Program-made: the position numbers and the translations under genes
Source: Actinomycetota bacterium
GTDB taxonomy: Bacteria > Actinomycetota > Actinomycetes > Nanopelagicales > Nanopelagicaceae
Assembly (NCBI GenBank): GCA_029978425.1
Contig: JAPOJL010000010.1
Span: 1 to 15,504 of the forward strand
Reading direction: 5' to 3'
Length of the DNA: 15,504 nt
Part shown: in pieces, positions 2,459 to 4,660 of the stretch
How the letters are laid out: each line of letters starts with the position of its first letter
Position numbering within the stretch: position 1 is the stretch's first letter
Notes under the pieces: model-generated
The model's database searches: none
What the model was told of the DNA's origin: nothing
What the model saw: the letters and a program-made list of their open reading frames with translations, nothing else

Positions 2459-2486
2459 TTGAAGGAGTATTCGAAAAAGGTACTAT
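2459..2486 (+). promoter_or_regulatory. probable promoter of the infC operon
   Basis: TTGAAG at 2459-2464 (four of six matches to TTGACA), a 16-base spacer, and TACTAT at 2481-2486 (TANNNT). Transcription would start near 2493, directly before the first hairpin of the leader, giving a 5' untranslated region of about 144 bases to the proposed ATC start. Predicted by eye only. Confidence 0.4.
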
Positions 2487-2510
2487 TTCGGCCTTGGTCA
2501 CAGGACCAAC

Positions 2511-2525
2511 ATGAAGTGGAGCTAG
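2511..2525 (+). other. possible four-codon upstream ORF (M-K-W-S) in the infC leader
   Basis: An ATG at 2511 is followed by AAG TGG AGC and a TAG stop. An AGGA at 2502-2505 lies five bases upstream and could act as ribosome binding site, but it is partly within hairpin H1. The stop codon falls in the loop of hairpin H2, so a translating ribosome would open H1 and H2. A chance mini-ORF is quite possible. Confidence 0.2.
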
Positions 2526-2625
2526 CCGCTCCCACCTACCTCACTTTTAGGTGAGCTGGTCAACAAGAGCAAGACCAAAATATTGGTCTCATTCTGGCGG
2601 CTGACTTCCATCATGCTTTTAGTGA

Positions 2626-2630
2626 AGGGA
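2626..2630 (+). promoter_or_regulatory. Shine-Dalgarno that decides the infC start (AGGGA)
   Basis: AGGGA within the purine run 2624-2634 lies six bases before the ATC at 2637. This spacing is ideal for ATC. It lies inside the coding frame if the upstream ATG (2613) or GTG (2622) were used, and neither of those has a comparable site. Confidence 0.6.
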
Positions 2631-2636
2631 AGAGTT

Positions 2637-3212
2637 ATCAGCACAGCAGAACCACGTATCAATGATCGAATTCGCGTTCCTGAGATTCGTTTGATTGGTG
2701 CTTCTGGCGAGCAGGTCGGTGTCGTAGCGATTGATGAAGCGCTTCGTATGGCCGAAGAATATGGTCTCGATCTCGTCGAGATTGCTCCCGAAGCAAATCC
2801 ACCAGTCTGCAAGATCATGGACTTCGGAAAATATAAGTACGAGATCGCTCAAAAAGCGCGCGAAGCCCGTCAGAACCAGACCCACATTGTGGTCAAGGAA
2901 ATTCGAATGGGTCTCAAGATTGAGAATCATGATTACGAAACGAAGAAGAACCATATTGAAAAGTTCTTACTCGGTGGTGACAAGGTGAAGGTAACTGTTC
3001 AATTCAAGGGTCGTGAACAGACCAGACCAGAAATGGGGTTCAGATTGCTACAACGTCTTGCAGAAGATGTCGCCGCAACTGGATTTGTTGAGTTCGCTCC
3101 GAAGCGCGAAGGCCGTTCCATGACAATGGTGCTTGGCCCCGTGAAGAAGAAGAGCGAAGCCCTCGCTGAAGCAAAGCGCGCCCGCGCCGCCCAGGCCCAA
3201 ACTGAGAAGTAA
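2637..3212 (+). CDS. infC: translation initiation factor IF-3
   Basis: IF-3 binds the 30S subunit, prevents premature joining of 50S and checks start codon and initiator tRNA. From the proposed ATC start the product has 191 residues: N-domain with [23 protein letters not shown] and [15 protein letters not shown], an interdomain helix, and C-domain with [10 protein letters not shown] and [17 protein letters not shown], then a charged Lys/Ala-rich tail. Family similarity begins at [14 protein letters not shown], where actinobacterial IF-3 proteins begin; only ATC matches this point. Alternatives in frame are GTG 2622, ATG 2613 and TTG 2583, adding 5, 8 or 18 residues without family support. A rare start codon in infC is established for E. 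coli (AUU), where IF-3 discriminates against it and so represses its own translation. First gene of infC-rpmI-rplT. Confidence 0.96.
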
Positions 3213-3284: not shown

Positions 3285-3482
3285 ATGCCAAAGATGAAAA
3301 CACATAGTGGCGCAAAGAAGACATTTCGCGTCACCGGAAGCGGAAAGATCGTGCACGAGCGCGCTGGCAAGCGCCACCTCCTTGAGCGCAAATCTTCACG
3401 TCTCACACGTCGTCTATCAAAAGACCAGACTGCAAATGACCGCAATACGTTTTCGGCCAAGCGTCTGCTTGGAATGAAGTAA
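3285..3482 (+). CDS. rpmI: 50S ribosomal protein bL35
   Basis: 65-residue basic protein of the large ribosomal subunit. The N-terminus [20 protein letters not shown] is diagnostic for bL35, and the length equals the family norm. The body is rich in Arg and Lys ([13 protein letters not shown]) for rRNA contact. A strong Shine-Dalgarno AGGAGG (3273-3278) lies six bases before the ATG, much better than at most genes in the window, as expected for a highly expressed ribosomal protein. Separated from infC by a 72-base spacer of tandem repeats, and followed after 11 bases by rplT; the three genes form the conserved IF3-L35-L20 unit. Confidence 0.98.
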
Positions 3483-3493
3483 GGAGATAAGAC

Positions 3494-3856
3494 ATGGCTA
3501 GAGTAAAACGTGGTGTTCATGCGGCCAAGAAGCGTCGTACAACCCTTGAGCGCGCCAGCGGCTACCGCGGACAGCGTTCTCGTCTCTTTACTAAGGCGAA
3601 AGAGCAAGTAACTCACTCACTTGTTTACGCTTTCAACGATCGTAAGGATAAGAAGGGCGACTTCCGCCAACTTTGGATTACTCGTATCAACGCAGCCACT
3701 CGCGCTAATGGAATGACATACAACCGTTTCATTCAGGGTCTCAAAGCAGCTGGCGTTGAAGTAGATCGCCGAGTTCTCTCGGATCTTGCTACCAATGATC
3801 CTGCTGCCTTTACAGCATTGGTCGAAGTAGCACGTAAGAACGTCAAAGTTTCCTAA
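3494..3856 (+). CDS. rplT: 50S ribosomal protein bL20
   Basis: 120-residue ribosomal protein that is essential for early 50S assembly and binds 23S rRNA domain II. The start [26 protein letters not shown] and the motif [21 protein letters not shown] (about 61-81) are typical of bL20, as is the length (about 117-125). AAGGAG at 3481-3486 overlaps the rpmI stop codon and sits seven bases before the ATG, so the two genes are probably translated in tandem. In several bacteria L20 represses its own operon by binding a leader or intergenic RNA; whether the infC leader here is such a target is unknown. Confidence 0.98.
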
Positions 3857-3874: not shown

Positions 3875-4660
3875 ATGATTACGAGCCTTCATTCGCCTCA
3901 CGTCGAGGCGGTGAAGGCTCTTTTAGGTTCTCGGGGAGTTAAAGCGCGACGCGAATCTCAGACATATGTCGTTGAGAGTCTGCAAAATGTGCGTGAGTTG
4001 ATAGATAACGCTCCGCACCAAGTCAAGACAATTTATCTCACTGCGGATGGACAAGAAAAGTTAGGTCCCGTTTCAGGATTTGATATTCAAGAAGTCTCTC
4101 CTGAAGTAATGAAGGCAATGACTGACACTGTTACACCACAAGGTTTACTTGCCATCGCAAAAATTCCTAGCCAATCGCTCTCTCAACTTTTCTCTTCACA
4201 AAAAGGGGCTCTGAAGTTGGCATATTTCTGGGAGATTCAAGATCCAGGAAATGCTGGAACTGTAATCCGCGCCGCCGACGCTTTTGGATTCGATGGAGTT
4301 CTCTTCTCTGACAAAAGTGTTGATGCGTACAGTCCCAAGGTTGTGCGATCGAGTGCGGGATCCCATTGGCATATACCCATCATTGAAGATGTGACGTTGG
4401 AAGCGCTGATGAATGCAGCGGAAGAAAATAGCTCCGAGTTGTATGCAACCGATGCAGATGCTGACCTTTACCTACTCGTTGCTGCTCAAGAATCTGCTTC
4501 CAAGAGTGCGATATGGATATTCGGCAATGAAGCTCGTGGCATCCCACGTGATCTTCCAGCAAAACGAGTTGCGATCCCAATCAACGGCAAGGCAGAGAGC
4601 CTGAATTTGGCGACTGCAGCCTCAGTCGTGATGTATGCCGTCTCGGCTGCTCGAAAATAA
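3875..4660 (+). CDS. SpoU/TrmH family RNA 2'-O-methyltransferase
   Basis: 261-residue SPOUT-fold enzyme that transfers a methyl group from S-adenosylmethionine to a ribose 2'-OH of rRNA or tRNA. A small N-terminal substrate-binding domain (about 1-105, starting with ITSLHSPHVEAVKAL) precedes the knotted catalytic domain. Motif 1 is DPGNAGTVIRAADAFG (123-138) with the key Asn126 and Arg132; motif 2 is FGNEARGI around 217-222; motif 3 is INGKAESLNLATAASVVMY (236-254) with Asn244. All three are intact. Genes of this family sit between rplT and pheS in many actinobacteria, often called 23S rRNA methyltransferase; the exact target nucleotide cannot be read from the sequence. It follows rplT after 18 bases and is probably in that operon, although no Shine-Dalgarno is visible before the ATG. 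Confidence 0.93.
   Translation: MITSLHSPHVEAVKALLGSRGVKARRESQTYVVESLQNVRELIDNAPHQVKTIYLTADGQEKLGPVSGFDIQEVSPEVMKAMTDTVTPQGLLAIAKIPSQSLSQLFSSQKGALKLAYFWEIQDPGNAGTVIRAADAFGFDGVLFSDKSVDAYSPKVVRSSAGSHWHIPIIEDVTLEALMNAAEENSSELYATDADADLYLLVAAQESASKSAIWIFGNEARGIPRDLPAKRVAIPINGKAESLNLATAASVVMYAVSAARK

Follow-up and report, generated by a model that had tools for sequence, protein, structure and literature searches.

The infC gene in the window (the whole stretch of DNA analysed here, 15,504 nucleotides) is preceded by a leader rich in repeated complementarity, which raises the question of whether this leader is an RNA switch, which ligand it answers to and which step of expression it controls. Pfam searches confirmed the claimed order of the downstream operon as IF3-L35-L20: on the + strand, infC (2637..3212; IF3_N and IF3_C, with an AUC start at 2637-2639 aligned in relatives) is followed by rpmI (3285..3482; PF01632) and by rplT (3494..3856; PF00453), whose product, L20, is the proposed ligand. 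The window derives from a relative of Candidatus Nanopelagicaceae, the best named match of its IF3 being at 99%. An L20 gene was located 3' of IF3 in 72/72 loci with more than 1.1 kb of sequence after IF3 (near-duplicates counted), so that the leader occupies, in the window and in these loci, the position upstream of an L20-encoding operon that is expected of L20 r-leaders. We consider it probable that what precedes infC here is an actinobacterial form of the leader through which L20 regulates its own operon; L20 would bind to it and it would act here on translation, together with IF3 feedback at the AUC codon.

A conserved core ahead of infC

Leaders from the window and from the loci of relatives (110 leaders, 102 distinct) have a conserved core ahead of infC, AAGnGGAG-loop-CUCCCACC-hairpin-GGU (as DNA, AAGnGGAG-loop-CTCCCACC-P2-GGT). 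It is formed by two stems, at 2516-2535 and at CUCAC/GUGAG 2539-2543/2551-2555, which the original prediction had located correctly but set aside. A CTCCCACC-like motif was detected in 88/102 distinct leaders; the remaining 14 lacked [CG]TCCCAC[CT] in the examined stretch, some of them displaying near variants by eye. All 88 leaders with the motif also had AAGnGGA at most 40 nt upstream, a pattern that was not required for their selection. In the window, the corresponding AAG (2514..2516, + strand) contains an AA dimer that is a candidate L20 contact. The adjoining P1 hairpin, GUGGAG/CUCC-CAC (2516..2535, +), is invariant in 18/18 genus sequences and aligns with the first helix of RF00558; P1 is backed by this near-invariance, without covariation support, and its 5' strand and loop are also used to form the antisequestor described below.

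P2 (2539..2555, +) is closed by a helix with two consecutive C-G pairs, between ACC (2534..2536, +) and GGU (2558..2560, +, within CUGGUCAA). TGGTC follows P2 in 22/22 genus sequences and ACC was present in 82/82 sequences of alignment A3, whose rows were picked by CTCCCACC and by GGT, so that the invariance of both motifs in it follows from selection. A3 holds 82 of the 89 listed core sequences, seven having been omitted by hand; L102 yielded no core. Covariation in P2 is strong: counted with its closing pairs, it had both-side changes in 8/11 pairs, and the whole structure in A3 gave 138 double-change cells versus 51.5 in shuffles, with 0/500 shuffles as high and slid controls reaching at most 49. 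Folding of 2480-2640, a stretch that takes in about 13 nt of the probable promoter, was also more stable than that of its own shuffles (z -3.88, 0/200 as stable). According to PMC7247131, L20 leaders have in common an AA dimer and two G-C pairs in succession, a signature also present in the 23S site, and the core agrees with it in its letters and pairs, as distinct from three-dimensional docking.

A putative -10 element, TACTAT (2481..2486, +), would place the transcript start near 2493; a scan of the window for sigma-70 promoters found none. Among the 59 family leaders described below, TANNNT occurs 33 nt 5' of AAG in eight and 15 nt 5' of AAG in 20; in the latter lineages, transcription may start at the AAG of the receptor itself.

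Alternative pairing and access to the Shine-Dalgarno region

In the mechanism that we propose, the receptor would consist of AAG, P1 and P2 with its ACC/GGU closure. With little free L20 available, the 5' strand and loop of P1 (2514-2529) would pair with 2597-2609 (GCGGCU...CUUCC), and this antisequestor would compete with the Shine-Dalgarno region for CUUCC, allowing translation of infC-rpmI-rplT. We infer that L20 in excess would bind the P1/P2 junction and favour P1 by stabilising it, that the downstream segment thus freed would pair with the Shine-Dalgarno region and lower initiation, and that the AUC start would add feedback by IF3 itself; the direction and the size of the effect are inferred with the ligand. 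The model was built on computed features, namely the conserved core, an antisequestor that changes in step, a downstream region able to pair with the Shine-Dalgarno region and the position before the rplT operon.

The antisequestor joins AGCCGC (2524..2529, +; the P1 loop and the first C of the 3' strand), whose last 5 nt have an exact downstream complement, to GCGGCT (2597..2602, +), which changes in step with the P1 loop. Swap tests were performed on the family, defined not by lineage but as the 81 leaders left after setting seven apart by hand, and thinned to 59 distinct ones, in which the P1 loop has 5-7 nt. An exact 5-nt complement of the loop segment was found downstream in 51/59 leaders and was missing in eight, compared with a mean of 18.8 and a maximum of 30 for swapped partners. 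The duplex energy of the whole segment was likewise lower than with swapped partners (z -10.1, 59 leaders), the own partner being among the best three of 59 in only 15/59. Loop and partner types could be scored in 51 of the 59 leaders and matched in 47 of these, as GCCGC/GCGGC, GTCGC/GCGAC or ACCGC/GCGGT; on the IF3 tree they amount to only four loop-type and seven partner-type changes, too few for a sign test to reach significance. The original view of a conserved, structured leader with alternative pairings is supported, but the pairing that changes in step involves 2514-2529 with 2597-2609 and not the TTGGTC/GACCAA segments to which it had been attributed.

The Shine-Dalgarno region AAGGGAAGAG (2625..2634, +) was recognized from the sequence and is conserved before the start codon. 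In constrained folds CUUCC (2605..2609, +) pairs either with the P1 5' strand or with this region; in the genus 81.4% of cells were paired with the Shine-Dalgarno side, with no both-side changes, and alignments A1 and A2 had none in the sequestor. Complementarity between the downstream and Shine-Dalgarno regions exceeded that of swapped partners (z -4.5, 59 leaders), with the own partner among the best three in just 3/59. When the two folds were enforced in the 51/59 leaders with an exact antisequestor, mean Shine-Dalgarno pairing was 0.48 in the antisequestor fold versus 0.69 in the P1 fold. It was higher in the P1 fold in 38/51 leaders, lower in seven and tied in six (p 1.5e-6), so that by calculation 38/51 leaders behave as expected of exclusive folds differing in Shine-Dalgarno accessibility, with a small difference and helices that can coexist in the window. 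The P1 fold minus the antisequestor fold had a median of 1.4 kcal/mol, which favours the antisequestor, and ranged from -7.0 to +8.1 between leaders.

In this family-wide run, Shine-Dalgarno pairing in the window was 0.46 with the antisequestor enforced and 0.66 with P1 enforced, the latter fold being better by 3.7 kcal/mol. Folding of 2493-2640 favoured the antisequestor by 3.5 kcal/mol (pairing 0.44 versus 0.64) and folding of 2493-2660 favoured P1 by 1.7 kcal/mol (0.57 versus 0.67); from the putative transcript start, the sign of the preference thus depends on the stretch folded. The helix between the loop and GCGGCU coexists with the Shine-Dalgarno hairpin in the best fold of 2480-2640 and, with the inner helix enforced, in 2493-2660. 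Because these can coexist, exclusivity in the window depends only on the outer part, in which CUUCC pairs with the 5' strand of P1; it is stricter in some relatives (L037 and L066 among them), since there the GCGGU segment itself joins the Shine-Dalgarno pairing. This coexistence, the small difference in Shine-Dalgarno pairing and the lack of double changes in the sequestor are the weak points of the predicted Shine-Dalgarno part of the model.

Control of initiation rather than intrinsic termination had been anticipated and is supported for this lineage; consensus scans listed nothing resembling a terminator on the + strand of the window, and an intrinsic terminator in the window was rejected on that basis. 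The leader might instead be an L20 leader with another output, in which bound L20 blocks ribosome entry directly or alters mRNA decay or transcription and the Shine-Dalgarno hairpin is minor. The receptor is indeed much better conserved than the platform, the predicted difference in the window is small and terminator-like hairpins occur in other actinobacterial leaders. We nevertheless regard another output as unlikely, given the swap tests for both the antisequestor and the Shine-Dalgarno complementarity, the 38/51 leaders that follow the Shine-Dalgarno model and the result of the consensus scans.

L20 and IF3 as candidate ligands and the distribution of the core

L20 had been suggested among the possible ligands, and the presence of its gene in the operon, the resemblance to RF00558 and the order of the core together make it a likely, not a proven, ligand of the leader. 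That order, AAG, P1, P2 with ACC/GGU C-G pairs, P3 and platform, is the one of the B. subtilis L20 leader, in which, according to PMC6097659, L20 binds the H1/H2 junction, H3 is dispensable and the terminator H4 forms upon binding. The Firmicutes leader (RF00558; B. subtilis infC-rpmI-rplT) is identical in operon and position and likewise has AAG, a first hairpin, a CC...GG-closed second one, a variable third and a downstream switching element; Infernal aligned the window and one relative (L013) to it in register. In contrast to it, the window has no terminator and scores far under the gathering score, the P1 loop (5-7 nt) carries the antisequestor, and GGAG/CUCC replaces GAAGC/GCUUC.

At gathering cut-offs, Rfam gave no match in the window or in 20 loci. 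RF00558 was the top sub-threshold match of both the window (23.1 bits, E 0.014) and L013 (26.3 bits, E 0.002, same register), compared with a gathering score of 58.7 bits and with E values of 0.01 reached by chance by unrelated Rfam families; it was absent from L134 and L073, two of the four leaders tested. A scan of 60 genomes with RF00558 gave none over the cut-off and, among the matches listed, none at infC loci. Membership in RF00558 as defined by Rfam was therefore rejected, the scores being far below 58.7 bits and the intrinsic terminator that is its output being absent from the + strand of the window. The 23S rRNA of three relatives has GGUCCCAAAG and, later, ACCGA, which we take to be the L20 area, the two presumably pairing in the L20 site. 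A further candidate, CUGGUCAAG as a mimic of this site, was dropped, as the 23S CACUGGUCAAGUG seen in the relatives belongs to the L11/L10 region. The original view that the leader fits no known class thus holds in so far as the Rfam model stays under its cut-off, but the leader is similar to the Firmicutes L20 leader (PMC6097659, PMC7247131) in the order of its elements, in its position and in its conserved letters.

Other L20-related leaders are less close. The E. coli L20 operator, a pseudoknot and an irregular hairpin, likewise serves translational repression by L20, with 23S-site mimicry reported (PMC10931766), but it controls the L35 and L20 genes, not infC, and has another architecture. 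The Deltaproteobacteria L20 r-leader candidate is said to retain two G-C pairs and the AA dimer (PMC7247131); it belongs to another scaffold and lineage and was set beside the present leader by description, not by sequence. The M. tuberculosis infC 5' UTR is long (326 nt) and abundant (UTR/CDS 2.6 and 4.9), and the authors propose a regulation like that by L20 in B. subtilis; they also point to homology with the infA leader, and no L20 motif or structure is defined in the available part of that report (PMC3207917).

From its conservation in the relatives, the infC start is most likely AUC 2637-2639, preceded by AAGGGAAG, and not a canonical codon. In a motif search seeking such codons at the aligned place, family leaders had AUC in 74/81 and GUC in 7/81 cases, and other actinobacterial loci had AUC in 27/29 and AUU in 2/29. 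The leaders seemingly starting infC with GUC form a subgroup (L049, L052, L053, L071, L072, L077 and L081). The non-canonical infC start on which IF3 autoregulation through the start codon depends was thus found here, similarly to Streptomyces, in which infC uses ATC; repression of non-canonical starts by IF3 is established (PMC5472188). Such feedback would come on top of control by L20, acting at the codon and independently of the leader receptor. The conserved AUC start and the Streptomyces precedent could also be read as indicating that IF3, or a 30S intermediate, is itself the ligand of the switch, acting at AUC while the folds only tune Shine-Dalgarno access. This seems improbable to us: feedback at AUC can do without a receptor further upstream, and the core looks like that of L20 leaders. 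Nor does codon discrimination account for the place of the core in other leaders, about 154-253 nt before infC, or for the terminator-like hairpins that frequently accompany it there.

The exact pattern AAGNGGAGN{2,8}CTCCCACC was detected in 206/296 genomes of the class, with a backward-read control that was mostly 0 by eye, and was lacking in 90/296, several sampled families being almost wholly without it (by eye). Nearly all fetched pattern matches (29/30, the exception being L131) sit about 154-253 nt before the infC start. In a phylum sample, matches to model R1 lay 5' of infC in 11/12 class genomes, the loci fetched being those of all but the twelfth, G118 (12.6 bits). In other classes, only 2/19 fetched R1 loci preceded infC (L154 and L171, the latter weak at 17.2 bits), and R1 matches outside the class are mostly chance. 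L154, whose genome belongs to a different class within the phylum, has a core-like element 117 nt before infC (23.3 bits).

A loose scan detected terminator-like hairpins between core and infC in 22/36 other actinobacterial leaders (5.4 when shuffled) and in 6/59 of the family set (3.4 when shuffled). In these other lineages, too, complementarity links the 5' strand and loop of P1 to the downstream region (z -5.1, 34 distinct leaders), so that one and the same P1 strand seems to govern two types of output. In three leaders (L095, L096 and L097) the core is accompanied by a strong hairpin with a T-run behind it (6 T, 7 T and TTTCTT, respectively), which makes them candidates for transcription attenuation.

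This bears on whether the leader could be a constitutive element without ligand, conserved for mRNA protection or translation enhancement. Structure alone proves no switch, the case made here consists of sequences and predicted folds, and the Shine-Dalgarno difference in the window is small. A constitutive role is nonetheless hard to reconcile with alternative folds whose long-range pairing changes in step, with an AAG conserved outside the helices and with one core preceding either terminator-like or Shine-Dalgarno platforms, and we give it little credence.

Returning to the L20 reading, we found no description of an actinobacterial L20 or infC leader motif in the open-access literature, a scope outside which most subscription papers fall, and the M. 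tuberculosis analogy with B. subtilis (PMC3207917) had already hinted at the idea. L20 leaders are listed in Gammaproteobacteria, Firmicutes and Deltaproteobacteria (PMC7247131), and the L20 RNA of B. subtilis is said to have a narrow distribution, in Firmicutes (PMC6097659); Thermotogales have been added to the latter distribution (PMC3766115). A broader proposal, on which we are evenly divided, is that one L20 receptor RNA is common to Actinomycetia, perhaps co-descended with that of Firmicutes, and that its output was exchanged: terminator-like attenuation in many lineages and, in the small-genome freshwater relatives of the window, Shine-Dalgarno sequestration with the antisequestor in the receptor loop, stacked on IF3 feedback at AUC. 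If so, a single mRNA would sense both L20 and IF3. A class-wide counterpart in actinobacteria would supply a missing piece for a major phylum and a candidate family for Rfam. It would also help to explain why infC leaders can be long, as reported for M. tuberculosis (PMC3207917), and would constitute a natural series of leaders with one receptor that may control either transcription or translation.

The TTGGTC/GACCAA repeats and minor features

The five repeated segments were located as claimed (TTGGTC 2494-2499, GACCAA 2504-2509, TGGTC 2557-2561, GACCAA 2573-2578 and TTGGTC 2583-2588), and a hexamer present at least twice with two reverse-complement copies was reached in only 2/2000 dinucleotide-preserving shuffles of 2493-2636. 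The first two form the hairpin H1, TTGGTC-ACAG-GACCAA (2494..2509, +), 5' of the core; across 18 genus sequences, 3/6 of its pairs have both-side changes and 78.7% of the cells are paired. The last two belong to P3 (H4 in the original prediction; 2572..2589, +), a spacer variable in length and sequence among relatives, with both-side changes in 5/5 pairs and 75.3% of cells paired. Compensatory changes thus occur within each hairpin on its own.

The exchange of partners among H1, TGGTC and H4 that had been put forward as the switch draws on the rarity of these segments in shuffles and on a TGGTC-GACCA pairing seen in the enforced P1 folds of the window and of L010. L010, however, retains H1 and has an unrelated H4. 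TTGGTC is kept in H1 in 14/22 genus sequences, and only nine of the 22 have GACCAA or TTGGTC in the fourth hairpin, these being the window and eight relatives that share 91-93% identity with it. GACCA is found 5' of AAG in only 25/59 family leaders, and cross-pairing between H1 and H4 was no better than with swapped partners (2700/5000 permutations as good, n=12). The mutual complementarity across the repeats is therefore restricted to the window and its closest relatives, H1 and H4 change independently of each other, and their cross-complementarity is best seen as a coincidence between two local hairpins; the partner exchange was rejected, and we regard it as very improbable. Leader-peptide attenuation through a short uORF readable at 2511-2525 (AUG AAG UGG AGC UAG, Met-Lys-Trp-Ser-stop, from AUG 2511) was rejected as well and deserves hardly any weight, as an AUG is missing at this place in most leaders from outside the genus (which read AUCAAG, CUGCAAG and others) and L012, L014 and L020 have lost the stop.

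After rplT, a hairpin GAGCCTTCA...GTGAAGGCTC followed by TTTT, not listed by the consensus scan, was noticed by eye at 3883-3924, where it falls inside the first codons of a SpoU-like methyltransferase ORF (3875-4660).
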